A stretch of 39,131 bases of DNA. Source: an uncultured Clostridia bacterium (lineage in GTDB: Bacteria > Bacillota > Clostridia > TANB77 > CAG-508). Positions 7,433 through 26,230 of the stretch are shown piece after piece. Below the pieces are notes generated by a model. The model did no database searches. It saw nothing but the letters and a program-made list of their open reading frames with translations, and had not been told where the DNA came from. The position numbers and the translations under genes were made by a program. The first letter of the stretch is position 1. Each line of letters starts with the position of its first letter. The stretch is taken from positions 1-39,131 of the forward strand of contig CAJFJY010000005.1 in NCBI GenBank assembly GCA_904384205.1, in the 5' to 3' direction.

Positions 7433-8152
7433 ATGGAAAACTTTGATGAAAATATAGACTATTCATCAGAGAATGTAGCTGTAAATCTAGAGCAAATACC
7501 AGTAGCACAAGTTTATAGAAACAAGGTAATTTTAAAGTTAGAAAAGATATTAAAAAGAACAATCGATATAATAGCAGGTATCCTTGGAGTGATTGCTTTA
7601 TTACCACTTACATTAATAATTTATATAGCAAATTTAGCTTGTAAAGATAAAGGACCAATATTTTATACACAAGAAAGATACGGAAAAAACGGAAAAATAT
7701 TTAAATTATATAAATATCGCTCAATGGTAGTAGGAGCAGATGAAAAATTAAAAGAATATTTGGAAGAAAATGAAGAAGCAAGAAAAGAATATAAAGAATA
7801 TAAAAAATTAAAAGATGATCCAAGAATAACAAAGGTTGGAAAGTTTATCAGAAAAACAAGTTTTGATGAATTTCCACAGTTTATTAATGTTTTAAAAGGA
7901 GACATGAGTTTAGTAGGACCAAGACCATACTTGCCAAGAGAAAGAGAAGACATAAATGGATTTTTCAACTACATAACATCAGTAAAACCTGGAATAACAG
8001 GTTTGTGGCAGGTAAATGGTAGAAGTGATACTACTTTTACAGAAAGACTAACATTAGATATGAGTTATTATTATAAGCATAATTTGAAAATGGACTTGAA
8101 AATATTAGGAAAAACTGTAAAAGATGTAGTAAAAAAAGAAGGAGCTATATAG
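7433..8152 (+). CDS. undecaprenyl-phosphate sugar phosphotransferase (EPS initiating sugar transferase)
   Basis: KRTIDIIAGILGVI...GPIFYTQERYGKNGKIFKLYKYRSM...KTSFDEFPQFINVLKGDMSLVGPRPYLP...KPGITGLWQVNGRS. Confidence 0.96.
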   Translation: MENFDENIDYSSENVAVNLEQIPVAQVYRNKVILKLEKILKRTIDIIAGILGVIALLPLTLIIYIANLACKDKGPIFYTQERYGKNGKIFKLYKYRSMVVGADEKLKEYLEENEEARKEYKEYKKLKDDPRITKVGKFIRKTSFDEFPQFINVLKGDMSLVGPRPYLPREREDINGFFNYITSVKPGITGLWQVNGRSDTTFTERLTLDMSYYYKHNLKMDLKILGKTVKDVVKKEGAI

Positions 8153-9280
8153 ATGGCAAAAAAGAAGATAGTACATATTGCACAATCAGCAGGAGGAGTG
8201 GCAGAATACTTATATATGCTTTTAAAAAATTCTAATAATAATAATTATGAAAATATACTAATTGTTTCAAAAGATTATGAAAATCAAATAGATAGATTTA
8301 AAACATATGTAAGCAATATAAATATTGTTCCGATGACAAGAGAAATTGAAATAAAAAAAGATGTAAAGGCTATATTGAAAGTAAGAAAATTGTTGAAGCA
8401 AATCAAACCAGATATAGTATATTTGCACAGCAGCAAGGCTGGAGCGATTGGTAGAATTGCTCTAGCCTTTAATTTTCGAATTCCAGTGCTATATAATGCA
8501 CATGGATGGTATTTTAATGCAACAATAAGTAAGAAAAAGAAGAAGTTTTTTGCATTAATAGAAAAAATGTTAGCACTTAAAACAAAAATGATAATAAATA
8601 TTTCAAAAAGCGAGTATGATTCAGCAATAAAAAATAAAATTGCACCAGAAAAGAAAATGTGTATTATAGAGAATGGTATAGATTTTGATAAGTTTAAAGA
8701 TAACAATAAATATAGGAAAGAAACAAGAGAGAAATATAATATAAAAGATGAAGAAATAGTAATAGGAGTTGTAGGAAGGCTATCAGAGCAAAAAGATCCT
8801 ATGACAATGATCAAAGCATTTAAATTAGTAAATGATGTAAAAAGTAATACTAAATTAATGTATGTTGGCTCAGGAAATTTAGAAGAAGATGTAAAAGAAT
8901 ATGCTAAACAAGCAGGAATATTGGATAAAATAATAATTACAGGATGGGTTAGTAATGTAGAAGAATATATTCCAGCAGTTGATATAGCAGTACTGCCTTC
9001 AAAGTGGGAAGCTTTTGGATTAGTTTTAATTGAATATATGGCATGTGATAAGCCAATTGTTGCGAGTGATATTGGTGGTATACCTGATATTATAAAAGAT
9101 AAAGAAAATGGGTTATTGTGCAAATGTAATGATTATAAAGATTTAAGTGAAAAACTATTATATTTGATTAATAATAATGAAATTGCATATAGAATGATAG
9201 AGAATAATATTGATTATAGGAAGAAATATGATATAAAACTAGTAGTGAAAAAATATGAAGAACTATTTAAGGGGGAATAA
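8153..9280 (+). CDS. GT4-type glycosyltransferase
   Basis: HIAQSAGGVAEYL..., VGRLSEQKDPMTMIKAF, PSKWEAFGLVLIEYMACDKPIVASDIGGIPDII. Confidence 0.92.
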   Translation: MAKKKIVHIAQSAGGVAEYLYMLLKNSNNNNYENILIVSKDYENQIDRFKTYVSNINIVPMTREIEIKKDVKAILKVRKLLKQIKPDIVYLHSSKAGAIGRIALAFNFRIPVLYNAHGWYFNATISKKKKKFFALIEKMLALKTKMIINISKSEYDSAIKNKIAPEKKMCIIENGIDFDKFKDNNKYRKETREKYNIKDEEIVIGVVGRLSEQKDPMTMIKAFKLVNDVKSNTKLMYVGSGNLEEDVKEYAKQAGILDKIIITGWVSNVEEYIPAVDIAVLPSKWEAFGLVLIEYMACDKPIVASDIGGIPDIIKDKENGLLCKCNDYKDLSEKLLYLINNNEIAYRMIENNIDYRKKYDIKLVVKKYEELFKGE

Positions 9281-9283
9281 TCA

Positions 9284-10447
9284 ATGAAAAAAGTAGCAAT
9301 TGTTTCTTGCTATTTTAAAAAAAATTATGGAAGTATGTTACAGGCATATGCAACACAAAAAGTTTTAGATAACGAAGGAATTGATAATGAAACTATTAAT
9401 ATAGAAGAGAATGTTGATTTTAAAAAAGGTAAAAATAGTTTTTATAAATCTCAAATTTTTAATTTTTCATTTATAAAGTCTAAAATGGGAATGATAAAAT
9501 TAAAAGTAGATAAAAAAGTAAACAAAAAATTACATGAAAATTTAAGTATAAGAGATAAAGAATTTGAAAAATTCAAGAGTAAATTTAGACTTACAAAACC
9601 ATTTCACACTTATAATGAAATGACAGAAGAATGTAATAAATATTCAAATGTTGTTGTAGGAAGTGATCAGTTATGGTTACCTGTTAATGTTGTAGCAGAT
9701 TATTATACATTGAATTGGGTTCCTGATGAAATTAATAAAATATCTTATGCTACTAGTTTTGGACTATCAGTAATACCTGAAAAATATAAGGAAAAATACA
9801 GTAATTTTCTAAAAAGAATTAATCATATTTCTGTAAGAGAAAAAAATGCTTGTAAATTGGTTGAAGATCTTTCTGGAAGAAAAGCAGAGCTTGTATGTGA
9901 TCCAACTTTATTATTAAATAAAGAGGAATGGATGGAAATACAGCAAGAAAAACCAATAATAGATGGTAAATATATCTTATGCTATTTTTTAGGAAAAAAT
10001 ATACAACATAGAAAATTTGCGGAGAGATTAAAAGAAAAAACAGGATGTAAAATAGTTTCTTTAAATCATTCAGATGAATATGTGAAATATAGTGATAAAT
10101 TTGCTGATGAAACACCTTATAACATAGGTCCAGGTGAATTTGTTAATTTAATTAGAAATGCAGAATATGTATGTACAGATTCTTTCCATGGAACAGTATT
10201 TTCATTGATAAACAATGTGGAATTTTTTACCTTTGAAAGATTTAGTAGTAAGAATTCAAAAGTTTCAACAAATTCAAGAATATATTCATTGTTAGATTTG
10301 GTTGGTTTACAAAACAGATTATTGAAAGGATATGAAGAAATCGATAATATAATAAATAAAAAAATAGATTTTAGTGAAGTAAATGATAAAATAAAAACTT
10401 TTAGAAATAATTCGAAAGAATTTTTGAAAAATTCTTTAATTAAATAA
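9284..10447 (+). CDS. polysaccharide pyruvyl transferase family protein
   Basis: NYGSMLQAYATQ, VVGSDQLWLP, SYATSFG, ISVREKN, CDPTLLL, TDSFHGTVFS. Confidence 0.92.
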   Translation: MKKVAIVSCYFKKNYGSMLQAYATQKVLDNEGIDNETINIEENVDFKKGKNSFYKSQIFNFSFIKSKMGMIKLKVDKKVNKKLHENLSIRDKEFEKFKSKFRLTKPFHTYNEMTEECNKYSNVVVGSDQLWLPVNVVADYYTLNWVPDEINKISYATSFGLSVIPEKYKEKYSNFLKRINHISVREKNACKLVEDLSGRKAELVCDPTLLLNKEEWMEIQQEKPIIDGKYILCYFLGKNIQHRKFAERLKEKTGCKIVSLNHSDEYVKYSDKFADETPYNIGPGEFVNLIRNAEYVCTDSFHGTVFSLINNVEFFTFERFSSKNSKVSTNSRIYSLLDLVGLQNRLLKGYEEIDNIINKKIDFSEVNDKIKTFRNNSKEFLKNSLIK

Positions 10448-10475
10448 GAAAATTGAAAGTGGGATGAAAATATAA

Positions 10476-11211
10476 ATGAAAAATGAAGAAATACCTGAGA
10501 ACTTTGATACAGTGAAAACAAAAGATTTATTGAGTGGATATAAGCAAAATAGAATAAAAAGTATAGATATTGCAAAAGCAATAGGTATTTTCTTAATTGT
10601 TTTAGGACATGTTTTAAAATTTGGAAATTTAAGAAAATTTATTTATGCTTTTCATGTACCACTATTTTTCTTTTTATCAGGAATTTGTTTTACACAAAAA
10701 GATAATAAAAAGTTTATAGTGAAAAAAATAAAAACAATATATATTCCATATATAATAGTATCTATTATTAGTATAGCTGTATATTTCTTTGTTGGAAAAT
10801 ATGTTAGTAATAATATAAATACTAATATAGTTTACAATTTTATTCGGAATGTTATATGCTAATCCAAATTTGGATAATATGCAATGGAATCAGCCATTAT
10901 GGTTTCTTCCTTGTTTAATGATTCAGTTAATTATAATAAATATAATAGAAAATATAATTAAAGATAAAAGAAATAAACAAAAAATAATTTCTTATATTGG
11001 TCAAAGTACACTTATGATATTATTATTACATAAATTTCCTATCTTATTTTTTCAGGAATTATGTCCAATAATAAAAGATTTACTAAATAAAGATGACACT
11101 ATAATGAATAATATAATTTGTATTATTATTTCAATAGTTGTAATAGCTATGTGTATGGTTTGTAAATATATAATTGATATAATAAGGAGAAAGCAATATG
11201 ATAGAGATTAA
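10476..11211 (+). pseudogene. acyltransferase-3 family protein, frameshifted and apparently internally deleted
   Basis: KSIDIAKAIGIFLIVLGHV...FIYAFHVPLFFFLSGI in frame 1 (10476-10862) and FGMLYANPN...WNQPLWFLPCL...YIGQSTLMILLLHKFPI in frame 2 (10849-11211); join near 10843. Confidence 0.85.
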
Positions 11212-12397
11212 AGACAAAAATGATTGTTGTGGTTGTACAGCATGTATGAGTATATGCCCAGTAAAGGCAATTACTATGAAAGAAGATGAAGAAGGTTTTT
11301 TATATCCTGTTGTTGATACAGAAAAATGTGTGAACTGTGGGTTGTGTGAAAAAACTTGTCCTATCATAAATAAAAAAGAAAAAAGTGAAAAACAACAAAA
11401 AGCTTATGTTATTAATAATAAAAACGAAGTAATTAGAAGTCAGAGTACATCAGGGGGAGCTTTTTCTCCAATTGCTGAGTATGTTATTGAAAACAAAGGA
11501 GTAGTTTTCGGAGCTATAATAGACGAAAGTATGAGAGTATATCATGCTTACACAGAAATAAAAGATGGAATACAAATGTTTAGAGGAAGTAAATATGTGC
11601 AAAGTGATTTGAAAAACACTTTTCTTGAAGCAAAGAGCTTTTTGGATGACGGAAGAATGGTATGTTTTAGTGGTACTCCTTGTCAAATACAGGGTTTGAA
11701 GAGTTTTTTGGGCAAAGAATATGAAAATTTAATTACAGTTGATGTTGTTTGTAGAGCTGTTCCATCTCCATTGGTATTGAGAAAATATTTAAAATATCAA
11801 GAACAAAAGAATGGAATAGTAAATATAAAAAGAGTTGTATTTCGTGATAAAAGTAAATATGGTTATGGTTATTCTTCTATGTTAGTAGAAGGAGAAAATA
11901 AAATATATAGAGAAGGAATAGAAACAGATCCATATTTAAGAGCATTTTTTAATAATTATTCAGATAGACCAGCATGTTTTGACTGTAAATTTAGGAATAA
12001 AGATAGAGTAAGTGATTTTACTATATGGGATTGTTATACAATAGCAGAATTTGATAAAAATTTATCAGATAATAAAGGAACAACAAGAATGATTATTCAA
12101 ACTGCTAAGGGAGAAAAAATATTTGAACAAATAAAAGGAAAGTTTAATTTTAAAGAAATAGATATTAATGAAGCAGTAAAAAATGTTAAAGAACTTAAGG
12201 AAAGTCCTAAACCAAATGAGAAAAGAGAAAAATTTTTTGAGGATATTAATAACATTGATGAAAAAGAATTTTTCGATAAGTATTTTCCAATTACAATAAA
12301 AGTAAGAAGCGAAAAATTAGTAAGAAGAATTTTAATTAGAACAGGATTAAATGATAAGGTTAAAAATACAGTGAAGAAAATAATTAAAAAAGGATAG
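11198..12397 (+). CDS. FrhB-like (coenzyme F420 hydrogenase beta-subunit family) 4Fe-4S protein, EPS-associated
   Basis: CCGCTACMSICPVKAITM...CVNCGLCEKTCP 2x[4Fe-4S]; SGGAFSPIAEY; FRGSKYVQSDL; CFSGTPCQIQGLKSFL. Confidence 0.9.
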   Translation: MIEIKDKNDCCGCTACMSICPVKAITMKEDEEGFLYPVVDTEKCVNCGLCEKTCPIINKKEKSEKQQKAYVINNKNEVIRSQSTSGGAFSPIAEYVIENKGVVFGAIIDESMRVYHAYTEIKDGIQMFRGSKYVQSDLKNTFLEAKSFLDDGRMVCFSGTPCQIQGLKSFLGKEYENLITVDVVCRAVPSPLVLRKYLKYQEQKNGIVNIKRVVFRDKSKYGYGYSSMLVEGENKIYREGIETDPYLRAFFNNYSDRPACFDCKFRNKDRVSDFTIWDCYTIAEFDKNLSDNKGTTRMIIQTAKGEKIFEQIKGKFNFKEIDINEAVKNVKELKESPKPNEKREKFFEDINNIDEKEFFDKYFPITIKVRSEKLVRRILIRTGLNDKVKNTVKKIIKKG

Positions 12398-12429
12398 AAT
12401 ATCAAAGTAATATTGAATGGAGAAGATAA

Positions 12430-13548
12430 ATGATTAAAGTATTACATATTGGGATGTCATATGGATTAGGCGGAATAGAACAATTTTTAATTAATTATAG
12501 TAAAAATATTGATAAAGATTTGATAAAAATAGATTTTATTAATGTATTTGAAGTAGCGAAAAAACAGTCTTATTATACTGAACTTTCAAAATTAGGAAAA
12601 ATATATAATATAGCAGATTATAGAAATCATCCTTTTAAAAGTTATAAACAATTAAAAGAGGTTATTAATAATGGAAATTATGATATTGTTCATTATAATA
12701 TGAATTCTGCAGCTTATTTATTACCTCTTATTTGTGCTAAAAATAGTAATGCTAAAAGAGTTATTGCACATGCACATAATTCGGCTAATGATAAAGGTAT
12801 TATAAAAAGTATAGTACATTTTATTAATAAACATTTTATTACTTTTTTTGCTAGTGATTATTTTGCTTGTTCAGAAAAAGCAGCTAAATGGTTTTTTTCT
12901 AAAAAAACTATTAATGGTGATAGGTTTAAAATAATTAATAATGCTATAGATATAGATAAATTTCAATATAATCCAGATATAAGGGAGAAATATAGAAAAG
13001 ATTTAAATTTGAAAGATAGTTTAGTTATAGCTCATGTTGGAAGGTTTAAAAAACAGAAAAATCATGAAAAGCTAATAGAAATATTTAAAGAGATTAATGC
13101 AGTAGAAAATAATTCGACATTATTATTAATAGGTGATGGAATATTAAGGGAAAGCATACAAAATAAAGTGAAAGATCTTAATATATCTGATAATGTTAAA
13201 TTTTTAGGAATAAGACATGATGTAGAATCATTATTACAGGCAGCAGATGTATTTGTATTACCAAGTTTGTATGAAGGAGCTCCAACTGTGGTTATAGAAG
13301 CACAGGCATCAGGGCTTTTATGTGAATTATCAGATACTATCACTAGAGAGGTTAAGGTTCTTGATGAAACAAATTATATAGATCTAAAAGCATCATCTAA
13401 AGAGTGGGCAGATAAAATTTTGGATGATGTGAAAAATTTTGAAAGGAAAGATACAATTAGTGAGATGACAGAAAAAGGATATAATATAAAAAATGAAGCT
13501 TTAAAACTTGGAAAAATATATGAAAGCTTGGTGAAAGAAAGTGAATAA
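12430..13548 (+). CDS. GT4-type glycosyltransferase
   Basis: GGIEQFLINYSKNID, HVGRFKKQKNHEKLIEIF, LPSLYEGAPTVVIEAQASGL. Confidence 0.92.
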   Translation: MIKVLHIGMSYGLGGIEQFLINYSKNIDKDLIKIDFINVFEVAKKQSYYTELSKLGKIYNIADYRNHPFKSYKQLKEVINNGNYDIVHYNMNSAAYLLPLICAKNSNAKRVIAHAHNSANDKGIIKSIVHFINKHFITFFASDYFACSEKAAKWFFSKKTINGDRFKIINNAIDIDKFQYNPDIREKYRKDLNLKDSLVIAHVGRFKKQKNHEKLIEIFKEINAVENNSTLLLIGDGILRESIQNKVKDLNISDNVKFLGIRHDVESLLQAADVFVLPSLYEGAPTVVIEAQASGLLCELSDTITREVKVLDETNYIDLKASSKEWADKILDDVKNFERKDTISEMTEKGYNIKNEALKLGKIYESLVKESE

Positions 13549-14632
13549 AATAAAAATAGTTCATTTTGTAAATGGAATGAATAATGGCGGAGTTGAAGCT
13601 GTAATCTTAAATTACTTTTCTAATATTGATAGATCAAATTATGATTTACATATTGTTACACAAGGAGATAATGACGATAAATGTGTACGAAAATTTAAAA
13701 ATTTAGGGTTTAAAGTTCATGTAGTAACTAGAAAAAAGGAATCATTGATAAAAAATTTGAGAGAAATATATAAAATTTTAAAAGAAGAAAAATTTGATAT
13801 ATTACATACACATATGACTGTAACAAATGTATTTCCTTTGATGTTAGGTTGGCTTGCAGGGGTAAAGGTAAGAATAAATCATTCACATTTAGCAATAAAA
13901 GATATGGGGATAATGGATAAGATATATTGCAAATTATCATTACTTTTTACAACTCATAAATTTGCATGTGGAAGAGAAGCGGCAAAAACTCTATTTAAAA
14001 ATATGGAAGATGTTATTATTCTAAAAAATGCCATTGATTTAGAAAAATTTCAATACAATGATGAAATAAGAAAAGAAATGCGTAGAGAATTAAATATTAA
14101 TAATGAATTAGTTTTATGCAATATAGGAAGATTGACTGCACAAAAAAATCAAATGTTTTTGATAGAAATTATGAATCAATTGGTAAAACATGATCAAAAT
14201 GTAAAATTATTAATAATAGGATTTGGTGAATTAGAGCAACAATTAAAACAAAAGGTAGCTGAGTATAATTTAGCTGATAAAATTTCCTTTTTAGGTACGC
14301 GTGATGATATAGAGAAAATATATCAATGTTCTGATATATTTGTATTACCAAGTTTAAAAGAAGGATTACCATTAGTATGTATTGAATCTCAAACTTCAGG
14401 ATTAAAGACTATTGTTTCTGATAATGTAACAGATGAAGTTGAAATAACACCTATTATTAAATATTTACCGATAACAGATACAGAGATATGGGTTAAGGAA
14501 ATTTTAGATTTAAAAGAAGACTATGAACGAAAAGATTATAAAGAAGAAATAAGAAAGAATGGTTATGATATAAAATTAGAAGCAAAAAGATTGGATGATT
14601 TATATAGAAAAATGCTGGAGGAAAAGAAATGA
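13541..14632 (+). CDS. GT4-type glycosyltransferase
   Basis: NGGVEAVILNYFSNIDR, NIGRLTAQKNQMFLIEIM, LPSLKEGLPLVCIESQTSGL; GTG start overlaps previous CDS. Confidence 0.92.
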   Translation: MNKIKIVHFVNGMNNGGVEAVILNYFSNIDRSNYDLHIVTQGDNDDKCVRKFKNLGFKVHVVTRKKESLIKNLREIYKILKEEKFDILHTHMTVTNVFPLMLGWLAGVKVRINHSHLAIKDMGIMDKIYCKLSLLFTTHKFACGREAAKTLFKNMEDVIILKNAIDLEKFQYNDEIRKEMRRELNINNELVLCNIGRLTAQKNQMFLIEIMNQLVKHDQNVKLLIIGFGELEQQLKQKVAEYNLADKISFLGTRDDIEKIYQCSDIFVLPSLKEGLPLVCIESQTSGLKTIVSDNVTDEVEITPIIKYLPITDTEIWVKEILDLKEDYERKDYKEEIRKNGYDIKLEAKRLDDLYRKMLEEKK

Positions 14633-15816
14633 ATTTGTTAATTATTTCAAATGGTGATTTGCCAATCCCCACATCTCAGGGAGGGGCAGTAGAAACATTA
14701 ATACAGACAATAATTGATGCAAATGAAAAAGAGAAACAACATGAGATAACTATATATACACCATGTGATAATAAATCAAGAGAGATGGCAAAATCATATA
14801 AAAAATGTAAATTTGAATTTATAAATACTAATAGTTTTTTATTTAAAGTAGGTAGGGCTATAAGATTTTTAATTAATAGACTTCCTAATATTTATATAGG
14901 AAATCAGTTTATACATAATGTATCTAAAAAATTAAAAAAGCAAAAAGATAAAAATGATAAGTATGATTATGTTATAATTGAAAATAGTCCTCAATATGCG
15001 TTAATTTTAAAAGAATATTTTAAAGATAATTTAATATTGCATTTACATAATGATTTTCTAAATCTTAATATTGATATGTCATATAAAATATTACATTCAT
15101 ATGCTAAAGTATTTACTCTTAGTAATTATATAAAAAAACGTGTAGAACAAATAGATTCAAAATATAAAAATGTGTATACATTATATAATGGAGTTGAAAT
15201 AAATAAATTTGATAAAGATGTAGATGTAACAGAGTTACGAAAAGATCTAAACATAGAAAAGGATGATTTTGTATTTTTATTTACAGGTAGAATTGTAAAA
15301 GAAAAGGGAGTAGAGGAATTATTATTAGCATATAAAAATATGCCTGTTGATAAAAATTTAAAATTGTTGATTGTCGGAAATTTAAATACTGATAACATTA
15401 TTAAGAAAAAATATATAAAAAATTTATTTGACATTGTTAAAGACATTAAAAATAAGGTAGTATTTACAGGATATATTCCATATGAAGAATTATATAAATA
15501 CTATAAAATTGCAGATGTTGGAATTGTCCCATCAATATGGGAAGAGCCATTTGCATTAACTGTGATAGAACATTTAGCTTCTGGACATCCAGTTATTATG
15601 ACAAATTCTGGTGGAATGTCAGAACTTGCAGATAAAAAAAGTACTGTAGTAATAGAAAGAGATAATATGATACAAAATTTAACTAATGCTATGTTAGAAA
15701 TTAGGGAAAATAGACAGAATTATTTAAAACAAGACTTATTGAAGCAAGCTAATAAATTTGATAGTGAATCTTATTATAAAAGGTTTAATGAATTGATAAC
15801 AAAGGAGAAAGTATAA
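14629..15816 (+). CDS. GT4-type glycosyltransferase
   Basis: QGGAVETLIQTI, FTGRIVKEKGVEELLLAY, PSIWEEPFALTVIEHLASGHPVI; ATGA overlap with previous CDS. Confidence 0.92.
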   Translation: MNLLIISNGDLPIPTSQGGAVETLIQTIIDANEKEKQHEITIYTPCDNKSREMAKSYKKCKFEFINTNSFLFKVGRAIRFLINRLPNIYIGNQFIHNVSKKLKKQKDKNDKYDYVIIENSPQYALILKEYFKDNLILHLHNDFLNLNIDMSYKILHSYAKVFTLSNYIKKRVEQIDSKYKNVYTLYNGVEINKFDKDVDVTELRKDLNIEKDDFVFLFTGRIVKEKGVEELLLAYKNMPVDKNLKLLIVGNLNTDNIIKKKYIKNLFDIVKDIKNKVVFTGYIPYEELYKYYKIADVGIVPSIWEEPFALTVIEHLASGHPVIMTNSGGMSELADKKSTVVIERDNMIQNLTNAMLEIRENRQNYLKQDLLKQANKFDSESYYKRFNELITKEKV

Positions 15817-17058
15817 ATGAAAATTGCAAAAAGCAAAATTGTTAATATATATCTATTTCTTGTAATATTTTATTTTTTTACTAATTTCATTTATCAAATA
15901 CAGGTACCAATAATAATACTATTAGGAGGAATATTTATACTTTGTATGGGATTGGGAAATTTAAGAAAAGGAATAAGTTATACAGATTTATTCTTAATAT
16001 TATTTCCAATAACATTAACATTAATTTTTCTTATAACATTTAATAATGTTGAAGAAGCTATTAAATATATTATAGTTATATGGATTTTAACCTTAAGTAC
16101 ATTAATATTAAGTAAAGAAGATTTAAAAGATAATGGTGAAAAAATTATGAAATTTATTTTACTATTATCAGGAATACATGTTTTAATGACTTTATTATAT
16201 GCAATAATTCCAGATTTTGTACAAACTATAAATAGAATTATTTTACCAATAAATAGTTATAACAACAATGTATATGAAATGCAACATAATAATATAAATT
16301 GTGGAATTACTCCTATACAGAGTATAAATGCTATATATATAAGTGTTTTTATAGGATGTATTTTTTCTAGACTAATGTGTAAAAAGGGAAATAAGATTTT
16401 AAATATATTATTATTTGTTTTTTCTATAATTGCTTTATTTTTATGCTCTAAAAGAGGTGTTATGATAGCAGTTTTTGTGGCAATGTTATTTGTAATAATA
16501 TATTTACATATAAAGGATAAAAATAAAAAATTTAATATAGTAAAGACTATAAAAAAAGTAGTTCCAATAATTTTGATAATTGTGTTAGTAGTGTTTTTCA
16601 TTGAAAAATATTTTAATACAGCTACATACATATTTGAGAGATTTTTTACTCAAGAAGATATAACTACAGGTAGAGCTGATTTATATGTTGATGTATGGGA
16701 ATATATAAAAGAAAGTCCTATTATAGGAAATGGAATATTGACTACACAAGAAATGTTAAATACATATGCACATAATATTTATTTACAATTGTTCTGTGAA
16801 GCAGGAATTATTGGTTTGATAGTATTTTTAATAATGAATATAAGTATATTTCATAGAGTATGTAAACTGAAGAAAGTAAAAGATGAAAAGGTAATATTAG
16901 CAATATTCTTTTTTGTATTATTTTTAGTATATGGTTTTACAGGAAATCCTTTATTTGATTATTCTATAATAATTCCATATTATTTATCAATAGCAGTAAT
17001 TAATAATAAGAAATATATTAATGAGGAGAATACTATAAATGATAGAGAGCAAATCTGA
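15817..17058 (+). CDS. Wzy-like O-antigen ligase/polymerase
   Basis: Polytopic; ALFLCSKRGVMIAV, TTGRADLYVDVWEYIKESPIIGNG, THAHNIYLQLFCEAGIIGL-type motif (TYAHNIYLQLFCEAGIIGL). Confidence 0.85.
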   Translation: MKIAKSKIVNIYLFLVIFYFFTNFIYQIQVPIIILLGGIFILCMGLGNLRKGISYTDLFLILFPITLTLIFLITFNNVEEAIKYIIVIWILTLSTLILSKEDLKDNGEKIMKFILLLSGIHVLMTLLYAIIPDFVQTINRIILPINSYNNNVYEMQHNNINCGITPIQSINAIYISVFIGCIFSRLMCKKGNKILNILLFVFSIIALFLCSKRGVMIAVFVAMLFVIIYLHIKDKNKKFNIVKTIKKVVPIILIIVLVVFFIEKYFNTATYIFERFFTQEDITTGRADLYVDVWEYIKESPIIGNGILTTQEMLNTYAHNIYLQLFCEAGIIGLIVFLIMNISIFHRVCKLKKVKDEKVILAIFFFVLFLVYGFTGNPLFDYSIIIPYYLSIAVINNKKYINEENTINDREQI

Positions 17059-17619
17059 TTATAAGAGATATTTAAAAATGGATGCTTTTTCTTGCAATGT
17101 TAATATAAAGAAAAGTTTTAATAATGAATTATTTAGATATCAAAAATTGATGAGAAAATTAGAATATTATAGTAATTGTAAAAAAGATATTATATCTAAA
17201 ATTTTAATCATATTTATGAGAATTAAATATAAAAGAAAAAGTATTAAATATGGTTTTAGTATTCCTATCAATACATTTGGACCAGGATTAAACATAATGC
17301 ATAGAGGTACTATTGTAGTAAATGGAAATGCGAGAATAGGAGAAAACTGTAAAATAAATGCAGATGTTAATATAGGAACTCAAATGGGAACTAGAACAGA
17401 AACACCTACTATAGGAAATAATTGTTATATTGGTCCAGGAGCGAAGATATATTTGGAAAAATAAAAATAGGTGATAATGTAGCTATTGGAGCAAATGCGG
17501 TTGTAAATAAAGATTTCCCAGATGGAGTAACTATTGCAGGAGTTCCAGCTAAAATAGTAAGTAATAAGGGAACATGGGAAGCATATAAAAGGTTTAGGCA
17601 AAATGAAAATGTCAATTAG
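17039..17619 (+). pseudogene. serine O-acetyltransferase-like hexapeptide acetyltransferase, frameshifted
   Basis: Frame 1 ...GPGLNIMHRGTIVVNGNARIGENCKINADVNIGTQ...[11 protein letters not shown]; frame 2 [38 protein letters not shown]; joined by removing 2 nt in atatat (17447-17452). Confidence 0.88.
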
Positions 17620-17649
17620 AATTTTTTAATTAGGAGGAATAGATAAAAC

Positions 17650-18747
17650 ATGAAGATAGGAATATTAACATATCACGATACTACTAATTATGGAGCAGCA
17701 TTACAAGCATATGCACTACAGAGAAAAATTCAGGAATTAGGTTATGAGGTAGATATAATTGATTATAAATGTGAAGCAGTAACAAATAGATATAAAATAA
17801 AAAAATTGAGAGAAATAAAAGATCCAAAAGAATTGATAAAAACAATATTGACGAGAAAAACAAATAGAAAATTAAAATATGAGTTTGAAAGATTTAAAAA
17901 AGATTTTCAAAAAATAAGTAAAAAAAGTTATTATAAAAATGATATAGCTGAATGTTTAAATATATATGACAAAATTATAGTTGGTAGTGATCAAGTATGG
18001 AATTTAGATTTATCAGGGAATGATGAAACATATTTTCTAGATTTTATTAAAGATCCTAAAAGAAAGATTGCTTATGCTGCAAGTTTTGGATATTCTCAAG
18101 TTCCTCAGAAATATGTAGAAAAAACAAAAGAATGTCTAGAAAATTTAGATAATATTTCAGTAAGAGAGATTCAAGGAAAAAAATTAATAGAAGATTTAGT
18201 AAATAAACAAGTTGAAGTTGTACTTGATCCAACGTTATTATTAGAAAAAAAAGATTATATGAATTTAATAGAAAAACCAAAAAAATGTTATGATAAAGAT
18301 TATATATTATTATATAAAATGTCAGATACACCAACTCTTATGAAGTTTGCAAGAAAATTGGCAAAGATAACTAAATGTAAAATTATATATTTAAATCATT
18401 CATATAAATATCAATTAGGTATGGATAATATAAGAGGAGCAAGTGTGGGAGAATTTATATGGTATTTAGAAAATGCTAAGTATGTAGTAACAAGTTCTTT
18501 TCATGGAGTAGCAATGTCAATTGTTTTTAATAAAAATTTCTTTTATGAATTGGATAATAGTAAGGGAAATTCTAATTCAAGAACAAAGAATCTGGTTGAA
18601 TTATTGAATTTAGAATGTAGAGAAATAGTACAAGCAGAAAATAATGAAATTGATAATCAGATAGAATATAATAAAGTTGATAAGATATTAACAAAAGAAA
18701 GGGAAAAATCAATAGAATTTTTAACAAAAAATTTAGAATCTGATTAA
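17650..18747 (+). CDS. polysaccharide pyruvyl transferase family protein
   Basis: TNYGAALQAYALQ, IVGSDQVWN, AYAASFG, ISVREIQG, LDPTLLL, TSSFHGVAMS. Confidence 0.93.
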   Translation: MKIGILTYHDTTNYGAALQAYALQRKIQELGYEVDIIDYKCEAVTNRYKIKKLREIKDPKELIKTILTRKTNRKLKYEFERFKKDFQKISKKSYYKNDIAECLNIYDKIIVGSDQVWNLDLSGNDETYFLDFIKDPKRKIAYAASFGYSQVPQKYVEKTKECLENLDNISVREIQGKKLIEDLVNKQVEVVLDPTLLLEKKDYMNLIEKPKKCYDKDYILLYKMSDTPTLMKFARKLAKITKCKIIYLNHSYKYQLGMDNIRGASVGEFIWYLENAKYVVTSSFHGVAMSIVFNKNFFYELDNSKGNSNSRTKNLVELLNLECREIVQAENNEIDNQIEYNKVDKILTKEREKSIEFLTKNLESD

Positions 18748-18780
18748 AGAGAGGAGATACAATAACTAGATTATTGTAAA

Positions 18781-19845
18781 ATGAAAATGGAATATAGTGA
18801 TTTAAAAATATCAACAATTATACCTGCATATAATTCACAAGATTATATAGGAAAATGTATAGAAAGTGTATTAAACCAAAAATTTTTGCCAATTGAAATA
18901 ATTATTGTTGATGATGGATCTAAAGATAATACAGTAGAAATATGCAAAGAGTATGAAAAAAAATATGATATTGTTAAATTAGTAGAAATGCATAAAAATC
19001 AAGGAGTTAGCATTGCTAGAAATACAGGAATAAAAATTGCAGAAGGAAATTATATACATTTTATGGATTCAGATGATACAATTGAAAATAACATGTATTC
19101 AGATTTTAAAAATATTTTAAAGGAAGTTAAAGCTGATGTTATTATTTCTGGAATTAAAAATATTTATGAGAAAAATAATAAAATTGTTTTAGAAGAACCT
19201 AAAACTTCAGATTTGTATAATAAATTTGATGATATAGCTAATTTCCTAAAAGATATATGTGTAAAAGAAGGCAAAATATGGGCACTTAATGTTATTTGGA
19301 ATAAATTATACAGAAAAGATGTGATTATATCTAATGATATTATTTTTAATAGTAAAATAAATTTAGGTGAAGACTTTATATTTAATTGCAATTTTTTTAC
19401 AAATATTAATTCAATTCAAATAGTTAATAAAAGTTATTATAATTATTATAGACGAGATAATAATAGTTTGGTATCTAAGTTTAGAACAGATATAATAGAA
19501 AGAAGAAAATTGATATATTCAGAATGGGAGAAATTGTATAAAAAATATAATTTATATGATGAATGTAAAGAGGATATGCAGAAATATGAAGGATATTTAA
19601 TGTATAATAATTTATATACGATTTTTAGTAAAAATTGCAAACTTTCTTCTGCTGAGAAAAAGAGTTTTCTAAAAGAATTATTAGAATCAGAAAATATTAA
19701 TTTTGTATATTTTTTCTTTAATGGAAAGAAAAAATATGAAACAGAAAAAAAATTGATGAAGGCTAAAAAAATTGATTTGTTGTATTATTATATGTTAGTT
19801 AAAATTAAATTGATGAAACTAAAAAGTATAAGGAGAAGAACATGA
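18781..19845 (+). CDS. GT2-type glycosyltransferase
   Basis: ISTIIPAYNSQDYIGKCIESVLNQ, IIVDDGSKDNT, GVSIARNTGIKIAEGNYIHFMDSDD. Confidence 0.95.
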   Translation: MKMEYSDLKISTIIPAYNSQDYIGKCIESVLNQKFLPIEIIIVDDGSKDNTVEICKEYEKKYDIVKLVEMHKNQGVSIARNTGIKIAEGNYIHFMDSDDTIENNMYSDFKNILKEVKADVIISGIKNIYEKNNKIVLEEPKTSDLYNKFDDIANFLKDICVKEGKIWALNVIWNKLYRKDVIISNDIIFNSKINLGEDFIFNCNFFTNINSIQIVNKSYYNYYRRDNNSLVSKFRTDIIERRKLIYSEWEKLYKKYNLYDECKEDMQKYEGYLMYNNLYTIFSKNCKLSSAEKKSFLKELLESENINFVYFFFNGKKKYETEKKLMKAKKIDLLYYYMLVKIKLMKLKSIRRRT

Positions 19846-20984
19846 AGATAGAAAACTTTAATGAATGTTGTGGTTGTGCAGCTTGTTTAAATAAATGTCC
19901 TAAAAATGCGATTGTTATGAAAGAGAATGAACAAGGTTTTTTGTATCCTATTATAGATAAAAATAAATGTATTTCTTGTGGATTATGTGAAAAAGTTTGT
20001 CCTATGTTAAATAAGCTAGAACCATCAAAGGAGCAAAATCAAAAGTTCTATGCAGTAAAACATAAGGAAGAAAAAATTAGAGAAGCAAGCTCTTCTGGAG
20101 GTGTGTTTAATGAAATTGCAGAACTCTTTTTAAAAAATAATGGAGTTATATATGGAGCAGTTTTTACAGATGATTTTAAAGTAAAACATATCAGAGCTGA
20201 AGATAGATCTGGAAAAGATAAAATGAGAGGTTCAAAATATGTACAAAGTGATATACAAGATGTATATGAAAATTTGAAAAAAGATTTAGAAGGGAATAGA
20301 AAGGTGCTATTTTCTGGTACCCCATGTCAAATTGTAGCAATTAAAAAGTATCTGGGAAAAGAAGATGAAAATTTGACAACATGTGATATAATTTGCCATG
20401 GAGTGCCTAGTCCAAAAGTATTTAAAGAATACCTAGAGATGCAATCTAGAAAATTTGATTCCAAAATTAATTCTGTTTCTTTTAGAAGTAAGAAAATAAA
20501 GGGATTTGTACAAAGTATGGAAATAGAGTTTAAAAATGGAAAAAGATATTTGAAAAAATTATATAAAGATTTATATGGATATTCTTTTCTAAATGAAATA
20601 TTAATGAGAAAATCATGTTTTAACTGTCCATATTCATATGATAATAGAGTTGGAGATATAACATTAGGAGATTTTTGGGGAATTGAACATGTTGTGAAAA
20701 ATTTTGATGATAAAAAAGGAGTATCTTTAGTAATTGTTAATAATGACAAAGGTAAAAAAATATTTAATGAAATCAAGGAAAATTTTAATTTTGTAGAAAC
20801 TAATAAAGAGGAAAGTCTGAAATATAACAGAATAGGTAAATTAACTAAATCAAAGGATTATGATAAATTTTGGAAGAAATATGAAAGAATAGGTATATCA
20901 TATTTGTCTATGTATTATTATAAAAAATATGTAGGCTCAATACCTAAAAAAATATTGGAAAAAATGAAAGTTGGTAAAAAATGA
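19842..20984 (+). CDS. FrhB-like (coenzyme F420 hydrogenase beta-subunit family) 4Fe-4S protein, EPS-associated
   Basis: CCGCAACLNKCPKNAIVM...CISCGLCEKVCP; FSGTPCQIVAIKKYL; ICHGVPSPKVF; CFNCPYSYDNRVGDITLGDFWGIE. Confidence 0.92.
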   Translation: MKIENFNECCGCAACLNKCPKNAIVMKENEQGFLYPIIDKNKCISCGLCEKVCPMLNKLEPSKEQNQKFYAVKHKEEKIREASSSGGVFNEIAELFLKNNGVIYGAVFTDDFKVKHIRAEDRSGKDKMRGSKYVQSDIQDVYENLKKDLEGNRKVLFSGTPCQIVAIKKYLGKEDENLTTCDIICHGVPSPKVFKEYLEMQSRKFDSKINSVSFRSKKIKGFVQSMEIEFKNGKRYLKKLYKDLYGYSFLNEILMRKSCFNCPYSYDNRVGDITLGDFWGIEHVVKNFDDKKGVSLVIVNNDKGKKIFNEIKENFNFVETNKEESLKYNRIGKLTKSKDYDKFWKKYERIGISYLSMYYYKKYVGSIPKKILEKMKVGKK

Positions 20985-22034
20985 AGATAGGAATATGTAC
21001 TATTAATGATAATGGAAATTATGGAAATAGATTACAAAATTATGCGGTACAAGAATTTTTGAAAAAACAGCGGAATAAAAAGTGAAACAATACAGAATTC
21101 TATAAATAATTATGGAGTAAAGTATCATATAAATAAGGCTAGAACAATGCTAGTAAAAATATTGAATTTAAAAAAGCATAGAAGACTTATTAATTTTTTG
21201 AAGTTTAATAAAAATATTAAGTTTGCAAGATTTGGAATTGATAAATCACATATAATAAAAAATATTAATAAAAAATATGACTATTTTATAACTGGTAGTG
21301 ATCAGGTTTGGAATCCTAATTTTAATAGAATGTCAGATATAGATTTTTTAGTATTTGCTACACCTGAAAAAAGAGTTGCATTTAGTGCTAGTTTTGGTAT
21401 AAGTGAAATACCAGAAGATATGAAAGACTATTACAAAGAACGTCTTTTGGGAATAAAGTATTTATCAGTAAGAGAAGATACTGGAAAAGATATTATTGAA
21501 AATTTAACAGGAAGAGAAGATGTACAGGTATTAGTAGATCCAACAATGCTTTTGACATCAGAAGAATGGAATAAAGTTATAAAAAAGCCAAAACAGTTAA
21601 AGACAGATAAATATATATTAAATTATTTTTTAGGTGAATTATCTGATAAAAGAAAACAGGAAATAGAGAGAATAGCGAAAGAGAATAATTGTGAAATAAT
21701 AAATATATTAGATAAAAATAGTCCTTTTTATGAAAATGGACCAAGTGAATTTTTATATTTAGAAAAAAATGCTTTTATGATATGTACTGATTCATTTCAT
21801 TCTTGCGTTTTTGCTATTCTATTTAATAGACCTTTTGTTGTTTTTGATAGAGAAGACTCTCATGTAAAAATGAATTCAAGATTAGATACATTATTAAATA
21901 AGTTCAACTTGAAGAGTAAATGGTTTAATGATAAAATATCAAAGGAACAATTGCAGGCTAATTATAAAGAAGTATATCAAATATTAGAAGAGGAACGAAA
22001 AAAAGCGGAAAAATTTATAAAAATACTATTATAA
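20981..22034 (+). pseudogene. polysaccharide pyruvyl transferase family protein, frameshifted near the N-terminus
   Basis: ATG at 20981 gives MKIGICTINDNGNYGNRLQNYAVQEFLKK then breaks at an A6 run (21062-21067); other frame continues NSGIKSETIQNSINNYG...TGSDQVWNPNF...ASFGISEIP...CTDSFHSCVF. Confidence 0.88.
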
Positions 22035-22055
22035 TAGAAAGGAACGAAATATTAG

Positions 22056-23609
22056 ATGAAAGAAAGTACTTCAAGAATTAAGAACACCACGATTAATTCA
22101 ACAATAGCATTAACATCAAAAGTATTAACATTTGTATTGCAATTCATATGTAGAACTGTATTTATAAGAGTATTAAGCACAGAATATTTGGGTGTCAATG
22201 GATTATTTACAAATATATTAACAATGTTATCATTTGCTGAATTAGGTATTGGTAATGCTATTATATTCAAATTGTATAAGCCAATAGCTGATAATGATGA
22301 AGAGAAAATAAAAACTTATATGAAATTTTACCAAAAAGCGTATTTTTTAATTGGTATAATAATATTAACAATAGGAATACTAATTATTCCATTTTTAAAA
22401 TACATGATAAATGATGTTCCAGATATAAAAGAGAATATTTATTTTATATATGTATTGTTTTTAGCAAATTCAACGATATCTTATTTCTTTACATATAAGA
22501 AATCAATTATAATTGGTTATCAAAAGGAATATATTATAACTCTAATAAATTTAGTTGCAATTATAGTACAAAATATAGTACAAATCATTATATTATTAGT
22601 AACTAAAAATTATATATTGTATTTGCTAATTCAAATTTCTGCTACATTTTTGGAGAATTTCTTGGCATCAAAGAAAGCTGATAAGATGTATCCATTTGTT
22701 AAAGATAAGAATTATGAGAAAATATCCAAATCTGAAGAAAAGAAAATATTTACAGATGTTAAGTCTTTAATTTTATATAAAATAGGATATATATTATCTA
22801 ATGGTACAGATAATATAATAATTTCTGCTTTTGTTGGAGTAAGTGAAGTAGGATTATTATCAAATTATACAACTATTACTAATGCTATAACTACATTTCT
22901 TTCATCATTTTTTAATGGTTTTACAGCAAGTGTAGGAAATTTGAATACAACTGATGATAATGAAAAAAAGGAATCTATATTTTATCAAATCTTGTCACTA
23001 TCTTTTTTAGTATATGGGTTTGTGTCAGTAGCTATAGCATTATTAAGTAATGATTTTATTGTAATATGGTTAGGACAAGATTATCTATTAAGCTTTAGTG
23101 TATGTTTGGCATTAGGACTTAATATGTATGTTGATGGAATGAGATTTGTAAATTATACTTTTAGAAATACAATGGGATTATTTAAGAAAGGAAGACTTAT
23201 TCCTTTAATTTCATCTGTTACTAATGTGATTTTATCAGTATTATTAGTAAGATATATAGGTATTTTTGGTGTATTAATTGCAACAGTATTAACTAGATTA
23301 TTTATAACAACAATGTATGATCCATATTTATTGCATAAATATAAATTTAATACACCATGTAGAAGATATTATTTAACATATATATATTATTTTATTATAC
23401 TAATTATGGACTTTTGTATTTGCAATTTTGTTTTATCTAAAATAGTAATTGGAGGAATCCTAGGCTTTATAGTAAAAGGAATTGTAATAATGATAATTAC
23501 ATATATATTATTCCTAATTTTTGTATGCAGAATGAAAGAGTTTAAAGAGCTAAAAGATATATTAAAAAATATAGTATTAAAAAGATTTATAAAAAGAAAG
23601 GAAGTATAA
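22056..23609 (+). CDS. Wzx-like polysaccharide flippase (MOP superfamily)
   Basis: STINSTIALTSKVLTFVLQFICRTVFIRVLSTEYLGVNGLFTNILTMLSFAELGIGNAIIFKLYKPIA; polytopic. Confidence 0.92.
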   Translation: MKESTSRIKNTTINSTIALTSKVLTFVLQFICRTVFIRVLSTEYLGVNGLFTNILTMLSFAELGIGNAIIFKLYKPIADNDEEKIKTYMKFYQKAYFLIGIIILTIGILIIPFLKYMINDVPDIKENIYFIYVLFLANSTISYFFTYKKSIIIGYQKEYIITLINLVAIIVQNIVQIIILLVTKNYILYLLIQISATFLENFLASKKADKMYPFVKDKNYEKISKSEEKKIFTDVKSLILYKIGYILSNGTDNIIISAFVGVSEVGLLSNYTTITNAITTFLSSFFNGFTASVGNLNTTDDNEKKESIFYQILSLSFLVYGFVSVAIALLSNDFIVIWLGQDYLLSFSVCLALGLNMYVDGMRFVNYTFRNTMGLFKKGRLIPLISSVTNVILSVLLVRYIGIFGVLIATVLTRLFITTMYDPYLLHKYKFNTPCRRYYLTYIYYFIILIMDFCICNFVLSKIVIGGILGFIVKGIVIMIITYILFLIFVCRMKEFKELKDILKNIVLKRFIKRKEV

Positions 23610-23612
23610 ATA

Positions 23613-25340
23613 ATGTATTCAAATGTAAAAAATGTACAATTATTAGTAGCAATGTTAAAAGCAAAGAAGGTAAAAAATATAGTAGTGTCTGCAGGAACTA
23701 GTCATGATGCTATTGCAAGATCACTTGAATGTGATGACTATTTTAAAACATATAATATTGTTGATGAGAGAAGTGCAGCTTTTTTTGCATTAGGTTTAAT
23801 TCAAGAATTGAATGAAACAGTTGCAATTGTTTGTACAGCGGGTACAGCGGCAGTTAATTATTTAACAGGAGTAACAGAGGCTTCTAGAAGAAATTTGCCT
23901 CTAGTTGTAATTACTGCTGATAAGAATCCATATTATTATAATCAATTTGAAGATCAAATGGTTGATCAAATTAATTTATTTAAGTCAGTTGTAAAACATA
24001 CAGTTTCATTGCCAATGATAAAAGATGATAAAGATAGATGGTATTGTGAAAGACTTTTGAATGAAGCCTTTTTAGAAATTAATCATCATGGGACAGGTCC
24101 AGTTCATATTAATATTCCAATAGAAGAAGGTATGTTTGCAATTGGAGATACTTTTACAACAAAGGAATTACCAAAAATAAAGGTTATAGAAAGATTAGAC
24201 GTTTCAAGTGATTTGAATAAATGGGAGGAAAAGTTTAGATCTTTAAAAAATAAAAAAGTTTTAATTGTTTATGGACAAGATTACAATGTTACACAAAGTA
24301 GAATTGAAAAATTGGAAAAGATTTTTAGAAATTATAATTGTTTAATTTCTACAGAGAAGTTGTCTAATTTGCATTGTGAAGGAGCTATTGAAATGTCTAA
24401 AGTTTCAAGAATGATGACAGTATCTGGTGAGTTTGAACAAATATGTCCAGATGTTGTTATTAGCTTGGCAGGTTCAGTAGCTTGGGATGGAAAATTTGCA
24501 CTTAAAAGTAATAATAAAAAATTTGAAAATTGGCTTGTTTCAGAATTTGGCATGGTTCAAGATTTTTATAGAAATTTGACTAATATTTTTGAATGTTCTA
24601 TAGATGAGTTTTTAGAAAAAATGTCTAATTATGAAATTGATGAGAAAAATGATTATTATAATTTATGTAAGAATTTAGATGCTAAATTTGAATTGCCAAA
24701 TTTTGAATATTCAAATTTGTATGTTACTCAAAAGCTTATGAATAATATTCCTAAAGATTCTATATTAAATTTAGCAAATAGTAGTACTATAAGGTTAGCA
24801 CAATATTTTGATAATGATCCAAGCATAAAGATTTATTGTAATCGTGGTATTCATGGAATAGATGGGTGTATGTCAACTTTTATAGGACAAAGTGCAGTAA
24901 CTGATAAATTAAGTTTTTTAATAATTGGAGATTTGACATTTTTTTATGATATGAATGCATTGTGGAATAGATATGTTGGAAAAAATGTAAGGATAATGTT
25001 GGTAAATAATTCAGGAGCGGCTTTATTTCATTTTAATCAAGGATTACAAAAATATCCAACACTTAATGAAAATGTTGCAGCAGATCATAATGCAACAGCA
25101 AAAGGTTGGACAGAATCAAGAGGGTTTAAATATTTATCTTCTACAAATAAAGAAGAATTTGATAAAAACTTAGTAGAATTTGTAAATCCTAATTCAGATA
25201 AACCGATAATTTTAGAGGTATTTACTAAAAAAGAAGAGGATGCAAGATTACAACATGAATTTTTTGAATATAATTTACCAGATTCTGAGAAATTAAAAAG
25301 AAATATAAAGAGTGTAATAAAAAAGGCAATTGGTAGATAA
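23613..25340 (+). CDS. MenD-like thiamine-pyrophosphate-dependent enzyme of EPS locus
   Basis: VDERSAAFFALG (catalytic Glu region), VCTAGTAAVNYLTGVTEASRRNLPLVVITAD, C-terminal TPP motif IIGDLTFFYDMNALWNRYVGKNVRIMLVNNSG. Confidence 0.85.
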   Translation: MYSNVKNVQLLVAMLKAKKVKNIVVSAGTSHDAIARSLECDDYFKTYNIVDERSAAFFALGLIQELNETVAIVCTAGTAAVNYLTGVTEASRRNLPLVVITADKNPYYYNQFEDQMVDQINLFKSVVKHTVSLPMIKDDKDRWYCERLLNEAFLEINHHGTGPVHINIPIEEGMFAIGDTFTTKELPKIKVIERLDVSSDLNKWEEKFRSLKNKKVLIVYGQDYNVTQSRIEKLEKIFRNYNCLISTEKLSNLHCEGAIEMSKVSRMMTVSGEFEQICPDVVISLAGSVAWDGKFALKSNNKKFENWLVSEFGMVQDFYRNLTNIFECSIDEFLEKMSNYEIDEKNDYYNLCKNLDAKFELPNFEYSNLYVTQKLMNNIPKDSILNLANSSTIRLAQYFDNDPSIKIYCNRGIHGIDGCMSTFIGQSAVTDKLSFLIIGDLTFFYDMNALWNRYVGKNVRIMLVNNSGAALFHFNQGLQKYPTLNENVAADHNATAKGWTESRGFKYLSSTNKEEFDKNLVEFVNPNSDKPIILEVFTKKEEDARLQHEFFEYNLPDSEKLKRNIKSVIKKAIGR

Positions 25341-25350
25341 GGAGAAAAGA

Positions 25351-26230
25351 ATGAATATAAGAAAATTGATTCCTAAAAAGTTAATGACAAAACTTGATAA
25401 TAGGGATTTGAGATTAATAAAGTATAAATTGAGAAATACAGAATGTAAGTATAAAATTTATACAGAAGATTTAGGAAAATTGAAAGACAAAGTTGCTATA
25501 GTTACAGGAGGGTCAGGAGCAATAGGAAGTGCAATTTGTTTTAGGTTAGCAATGGAAGGTGCACATGTTTTTGTTGCAGGAAGAAATAAAGAAAATTTGA
25601 ATTCGGTAGTTAATCAAATAAAAGAAAATGGTGGAAATGCAGAATTAATTGAAGTAGATGTTACAAATTATGAAGATATAAACAAAAAGATGGAATACAT
25701 ATATAATAAATGCGGAAAAATTGATATATTAGTAAATAATGCTGGAGGAAGTGCAAGAAGCAAGAATAATAAAATTGTTGATCAAGATGTGGAAGTTATA
25801 GATGAGGTCTTAAATATTAATTTACGAGGAACAATTCTATGTTGTAAGGAATGTTCAAAATATATGATTAAAAATAATTATGGAAGAATAGTAAATATAC
25901 GGATCAACAGTTGGAATTGGTGGTTTGTCAGGATTTTCAGAATACTGTGCATCTAAAGCAGGAGTGATGGGCTTTACAAAATCTTTGGCAATGGAACTTG
26001 CTCAATTTAATATATGTGTAAATTGTGTTTCACCAGGTATTACTAATCAAATATTATGGGATAAACCTATAAAGGATATACCAAATGATAATAAAAGTTA
26101 TATAAATAGAAGAGGAAAAACTGATGATATAGCAAATGCTGTTGAATTCTTTTGTAGAGACGAATCAGAATATATTATTGGCCAAAATTTAATTGTAGAC
26201 GGTGGCAGAAGCTTAGGGCTAAAACAATAA
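25351..26230 (+). pseudogene. short-chain dehydrogenase/reductase, frameshifted at the catalytic-serine region
   Basis: KDKVAIVTGGSGAIGSAI..., ILVNNAGGSA...YGRIVNI in frame 1; GSTVGIGGLSGFSEYCASKAGVMGFTKSLAMEL...IIGQNLIVDGGRSLG in frame 2; removal of C25900 joins them. Confidence 0.88.

Follow-up and report, generated by a model that had tools for sequence, protein, structure and literature searches.

Why does a gene that resembles menD, and would thus belong to menaquinone synthesis, lie within a polysaccharide locus? The question is raised by the window, the whole stretch of 39,131 nt analysed here, which is contig C5 of a draft genome (1.49 Mb, 86 contigs, 93.7% complete). Its polysaccharide locus encodes an initiating sugar transferase; glycosyltransferases; a Wzy-like protein; PS_pyruv_trans proteins (genes at 9284, 17650, and 20981); and a Wzx, a ThDP enzyme, and an SDR (Table 1). 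The Wzx gene ends 3 bp before the ThDP gene starts, and the reductase ORF overlaps the end of the ThDP ORF by about 10 bp. An earlier note on this DNA had named Wzx and an SDR as the neighbours of a MenD-like enzyme. This stands for Wzx; the SDR does adjoin the ThDP gene, but its sequence is split by a frameshift and is not a single open frame.

Table 1. Features of the polysaccharide locus in the window
Feature	Position	Strand	Basis
Polysaccharide locus	7433..26230	+	ORFs; domains for genes 17039-26230, remaining genes named from sequence only
FrhB/FdhB-like Fe-S protein	19842..20984	+	PF04432, 92.6 bits
PS_pyruv_trans (PF04230) gene, frameshifted at ~21065	20981..22034	+	PF04230, 101 bits for the 3' part
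Wzx-type flippase	22056..23609	+	PF01943, 40.2 bits
MenD-derived ThDP-dependent carboligase (putative)	23613..25340	+	Intact ORF, 575 aa; TIGR00173, PDB relatives, AF2/Foldseek
Classical SDR, 5' part	25351..25903	+	PF00106, 127 bits; Gly motif TGGSGAIG, N-terminal extension
SDR, 3' part, other frame (GSTVGIGGLSGFSEYCASK, C-terminal half)	25904..26230	+	PF13561, 77 bits

The ThDP protein scores 254.6 bits against TIGR00173, the NCBI menD equivalog, above the cut-off of 244.2; thus, an automatic pipeline would name the product of 23613-25340 MenD. The best acetolactate synthase model gives 45.9 bits against that model's cut-off of 538, and by this comparison at the level of models the protein falls outside the acetolactate-synthase-like decarboxylases. 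Its closest solved relatives in the PDB are all MenD, as are the top Foldseek matches of its AF2 model (pLDDT 88.2, pTM 0.86). Global TM-scores of this model against MenD are about 0.4-0.56, with an rmsd of ~19-21 Å; these modest values probably reflect domain placement in a monomer model, which was used for fold family only. The TPP-enzyme features recognised earlier are indeed present in an intact frame of 575 residues: the catalytic Glu, aligned with E. coli E55 and kept in 53/53 members of the clade described below, lies in VDERSAAFFALG, and GDLTFFYDMNALW...VNNSG is the metal/diphosphate motif. The altered MenD signature is likewise real. SAGTSHDAIA occupies the position of S/C-P-G-S-R-S/N in MenD, and TADKNPYYYNQFEDQ occupies that of TADRP...(N/P/G)Q.

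Passing the equivalog cut-off would be expected of a genuine MenD (SEPHCHC synthase) that is sited by chance in an EPS locus, but the gene content of the genome argues against this reading. MenB is missing from the 93.7%-complete host genome by a search that was positive in 11 of 14 control genomes, and so is any chorismate-binding enzyme (PF00425), which was found in all 14 controls. No isochorismate is therefore expected in the host. The genome has one MenD-family gene, and the 39,131-nt window yielded no further men gene, as the earlier note had said when it proposed a check of the whole genome. The pattern extends beyond the host: MenB over the cut-off is present in 0/26 genomes of the same class that carry members of the clade (host included). 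Draconibacterium orientale has both kinds of gene: one encodes a MenD that scores 385.6 bits and has MenB and MenF as neighbours, and the other is the glycan-locus copy, which scores 308.6 bits.

The active site points the same way. The roles of MenD residues are known from mutagenesis and structures (PMC2914249, PMC12312563). In the B. subtilis enzyme (Bsu), Arg32 and Arg106 (E. coli R33 and R107) are ascribed to isochorismate, and Arg409 and Arg428 (E. coli R395 and R413) mainly to 2-oxoglutarate (PMC2914249); in the Lmo enzyme, Ser408, Arg412, and Arg431 contact the decarboxylated 2-oxoglutarate intermediate (PMC12312563). The corresponding columns, in E. coli numbering, were read from an alignment of 76 proteins that includes 23 true MenD rows and 7 rows of the window subclade. 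True MenD retains R33 in 22 of the 23, R107 in 23, K292 in 22, S391 in 23, R395 in 21, and R413 in 23. In all seven proteins of the window subclade, R33 is replaced by S or T (S in the window protein itself), R107 is replaced by K, and K292/R293 are lost, while S391, R395, and R413 are all retained. The earlier claim that both substrate sites had been replaced is therefore correct for isochorismate and incorrect for 2-oxoglutarate. Since the genome lacks MenB and any chorismate-utilising enzyme and the isochorismate residues are lost, it is very unlikely that the window protein is a MenD in function, which supports the non-MenD role first suggested for it.

Other columns refine this picture. 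Q118, like E55, is conserved in 53/53 proteins of the glycan-locus clade. At the N117 column, close to where the carboxylate from 2-oxoglutarate sits, 7/7 proteins of the window subclade have Asp; this Asp could repel the carboxylate or replace it by a salt bridge, which is an objection to 2-oxoglutarate as the donor. The acceptor side is remodelled yet conserved within the subclade, with S/A-x-G-T/N-S/T-H and an NPYY...EDQ loop. Across the wider clade the S391/R395/R413 triad (S-R-R) is whole in 26 of the 52 members tabulated, and the remaining 26 have mostly L-R-V or L-R-T. This second subfamily probably has a changed donor; with S391 and R413 missing from roughly half of the wider clade, 2-oxoglutarate probably does not serve every member as donor. 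Among men-type MenD of Bacteroidales, R395, the arginine for 2-oxoglutarate, is replaced by Tyr in some (L043, L049, L067, and L075).

A maximum likelihood tree was built from 76 proteins, 53 of them from polysaccharide loci, with relatives sampled from groups other than Pseudomonadota. The 53 polysaccharide-locus proteins form one clade (support 100/100, recovered in every bootstrap tree) that excludes all men-operon MenD. A 100/100 branch joins this clade to the MenD of Bacteroidota, among which it is apparently nested, with support of only 72/86-88 at the inner forks. The clade thus appears to have arisen once from a Bacteroidota-type MenD, and sequence and statistics together establish that these ThDP enzymes descend from MenD as one clade and that the window subclade has lost the isochorismate site but kept the one for the 2-oxoglutarate carboxylate. 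All 15 Bacteroidales MenD in the tree for which context is available (L172 included) lie near MenF and/or MenB. With a tree position outside every men-operon MenD added to the genome content and the active site, a genuine MenD was rejected, and we regard it as hardly credible.

The relatives come from four phyla: Bacillota, Bacteroidota, Verrucomicrobiota (Akkermansia), and Spirochaetota. Within the window's own genus the gene is present in 8 of 118 sampled genomes, and strong matches are similarly sparse across the class; thus, it is an accessory gene with a patchy spread. A literature search for MenD or ThDP proteins with a capsule, a pyruvyl transferase, or a flippase, subscription journals aside, returned no description of such a glycan-locus family.

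What, then, accompanies the gene? Neighbourhoods were counted in 40 loci with at least 3 genes on each side of the ThDP gene, and the control was 24 Wzx-type genes from the same class; some of the latter are low-scoring transporter matches, so the control rates are approximate, and the loci are phylogenetically non-independent. An SDR or aldo-keto reductase lies within 2 genes of the ThDP gene in 37/40 loci versus 1/24 controls (Fisher p=4e-13). The 3 exceptions include one with an adjoining Gfo/Idh reductase and one natural fusion of an aldo-keto reductase (AKR) to the ThDP enzyme. Where the reductase gene is the immediate neighbour (37 cases), it always shares the strand of the ThDP gene, and the gap is mostly 55 bp or less. 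A PF04230 (pyruvyl-transferase family) gene lies within 4 genes in 38/40 loci versus 3/24 controls (Fisher p=1e-11), and the association is strong enough that this gene may form a module with those for the ThDP enzyme and the reductase. Wzx lies within 4 genes in 33 of the 40. The distances among ThDP enzymes vary together with those among SDRs (Mantel r=0.71, 28 common loci); the values for PF04230 and Wzx are 0.37 and 0.65. On plasmid pRUMAL01 of Ruminococcus albus 7 the annotated order is pyruvyl transferase, flippase, ThDP protein, NAD-dependent epimerase/dehydratase.

The reductase slot is taken by unrelated types: a classical SDR, an extended SDR/epimerase-like protein (L015, L147, L165, L169-L171), a Gfo/Idh/MocA protein (L010), or an aldo-keto reductase (L024). 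Thus, the phylogenetic check proposed in the earlier note comes out largely as predicted, with one EPS-locus clade paired with a reductase, but the partner is not always this SDR. The classical SDR features (Gly motif, S-Y-K) are present in the intact L003 orthologue and are split in the window by the frameshift. Of 35 long SDR partners, 25 match the strict pattern, and most others deviate only in its Gly-motif letters. In the natural fusion, a single 1046-aa ORF (L162:4225-7365) joins aldo-keto reductase, 4Fe-4S, and ThDP enzyme, next to a fusion of FrhB and PF04230 (L162:1711-4218, 835 aa). Sequence and statistics establish a conserved partnership with a reductase, including one natural fusion, in a family whose host here yielded no men pathway.

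Two further arrangements were seen. In L227 (G470:C4:83500-94500) the order is PF04230, Wzx, extended SDR, much as in the loci of the family; the ThDP gene is absent from this stretch, and a member of the ThDP clade lies on another contig of the genome. In one subclade, a protein of ~292 aa (L145:6771-7649; encoded immediately before the ThDP gene in L146, L153, L154, and L155) resembles a degenerate, stand-alone copy of the N-terminal (PYR) region of the family's ThDP enzyme (hhalign 96% probability, E 2.6e-9). Its catalytic Glu is lost, DERSA having become DLRSA or DVRSA, and it is possibly a pseudoenzyme partner.

In the window itself, several genes are broken. The SDR frame breaks at ~25895-25903, which yields ORFs 25330-25956 and 25925-26230; the intact orthologue, L003:9738-10616, is 80% identical. 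Relative to L003 there are single frame breaks in a hexapeptide transferase (~17460; gene 17039-17560), the PF04230 gene (~21065; intact orthologue L003:5363-6421), and the SDR (~25897), and an acyltransferase-like gene at ~10490-11090 also looks broken. The housekeeping ORFs that flank the locus look intact. The module may be inactive in the host genome, or the breaks may be assembly indel errors. A decaying, functionless remnant in this genome, which would not conflict with the account favoured below for the family, is quite conceivable without being probable. It fits the four broken genes, three of which were judged against intact L003, and the related locus L004 (L004:9720-10605, the L150 stretch), whose SDR partner is a multiply broken pseudogene beside an intact ThDP gene. 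Weighing against it are the intact 1.7-kb ThDP ORF and most of the other locus genes, and the draft state of the genome, in whose 86 contigs indel errors could mimic such breaks; the ThDP-SDR pair is intact in L002, L003, and L035, and the role of the family is unaffected. Family conclusions accordingly rest on the intact relatives. Programmed frameshifting of the SDR was considered and rejected, given the multiple distinct lesions in L004, stops among them, and the intact state of most relatives. The pairing is not strictly inseparable: in the host and in L004 the SDR is broken while the ThDP ORF is open.

The explanation that we favour, and consider reasonably probable, is that the pair forms a carboligase-reductase module, its carboligase derived from MenD, which makes a building block of the glycan, a MenD paralogue having been recruited once to capsule/EPS clusters. 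A 2-oxo acid would be decarboxylated on ThDP, and the resulting acyl carbanion would attack the carbonyl of an acceptor that is not isochorismate. The adjacent reductase (a classical SDR in the window) would then reduce the new keto group. The product would be a hydroxylated, probably carboxylate-bearing unit that becomes part of the glycan repeat or decorates it; the neighbouring Wzx would export this repeat. Because the carboxylate site is intact, 2-oxoglutarate is the likeliest donor in the window subclade. Here, we infer the identity of the donor, carboligation over simple decarboxylation, and the order of the steps.

The analogy offered at the outset was with YerE. In a YerE-like reaction, pyruvate or another short 2-oxo acid would give a C2 branch on an NDP-keto-sugar, which is then reduced to a yersiniose-like sugar. 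There is precedent for carboligation followed by ketoreduction in YerE (yersiniose), an O-antigen ThDP enzyme whose acetyl branch is then reduced, and in the ketoreductase Pau7 (paulomycose); the ThDP enzymes of these precedents are not described as MenD-derived (PMC12247030, PMC4753412). An RmlB-like dehydratase encoded elsewhere in the host genome could possibly supply a 4-keto sugar, and the loss of S391/R413 in about half of the wider clade may allow a smaller donor. Yet in the window subclade none of the three residues that bind the carboxylate has been lost, the ancestor of the family is MenD and not an acetolactate-synthase-like decarboxylase, and none of the genes around the pair in the window locus was recognised as dedicated to keto-sugar synthesis. 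With the 2-oxoglutarate site kept, the donated unit is probably a four-carbon, carboxylate-bearing one and not the two-carbon acetyl group of YerE. A true YerE-like transfer is thus quite unlikely here.

A slightly better case, still an unlikely one but a serious rival, can be made for a decarboxylase and a reductase that act without carboligation, converting 2-oxoglutarate to succinate semialdehyde and then to 4-hydroxybutyrate as an acyl decoration. MenD decarboxylates 2-oxoglutarate and holds the resulting intermediate (PMC12312563). The residues that serve 2-oxoglutarate persist in the window subclade, and a pair of such enzymes would account for the exchange of reductases. However, the remodelled acceptor side, superfluous for a plain decarboxylase, is conserved in the subclade, and neither an acyl-CoA ligase nor a dedicated N-acyltransferase was seen as a consistent neighbour. 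The carboligase-reductase module can also be extended, tentatively and as a conjecture that we would not call probable, to a MenD-derived family of four phyla that would couple 2-oxoglutarate through a C-C bond to a sugar or aldehyde. Reduction would then yield a glycan constituent, carboxyalkyl-branched or chain-extended, of a kind not described so far; the second subfamily, with its remodelled donor pocket, would make variants, and the adjacent PF04230 protein would belong to the module.

By all genomic signs, an enzyme of vitamin K synthesis has here been put to new use in the surface-glycan chemistry of bacteria without menaquinone synthesis, and the case is well supported. Gut and environmental bacteria appear to have turned MenD, with a partner reductase, to surface sugars, and databases mislabel the result as MenD. 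Each of the 25 proteins in alignment A1 passes the TIGR00173 cut-off-equivalent E-value, and many of these come from animal guts, so the curated model would systematically annotate the clade's genes as MenD, and pathway reconstructions may wrongly assign a menaquinone step to genomes that bear them. If the proposed chemistry is true, the gene pair would be a genome-readable marker for an as yet uncharacterised sugar class and would represent a new set of ThDP carboligases.

With MenD (SEPHCHC synthase, TIGR00173) the window protein shares sequence family, ThDP fold, catalytic Glu, metal motif, S391/R395/R413, and Q118. It differs in the replacement of R33/R107/K292, the Asp at the N117 column, and a C-terminal extension, and in lying in a separate clade and in a polysaccharide locus with a reductase and no men genes. 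The closest true MenD in the tree, at about 36-40% identity, is that of Bacteroidota men operons, the probable source of the clade; unlike the window protein, it lies beside MenF and/or MenB and keeps the isochorismate residues. The paired SDR has the Gly motif and the S-Y-K catalytic residues of FabG-like classical SDRs (PF00106/PF13561), from which it is set apart by ~45 extra N-terminal residues and by its conserved ThDP-gene neighbourhood. With ThDP carboligases of the YerE/ErwE type, the family shares a surface-polysaccharide (O-antigen) context, in which ketoreduction is thought to come next, and a polysaccharide-locus location with a ketoreductase-type neighbour (37/40 versus 1/24, plus one fusion and one Gfo/Idh); carboligation itself is what we infer for the window family. 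YerE, however, is a decarboxylase-superfamily flavoprotein that uses pyruvate as donor and CDP-4-keto-3,6-dideoxyglucose as acceptor, whereas the window family descends from MenD and probably uses a different donor.
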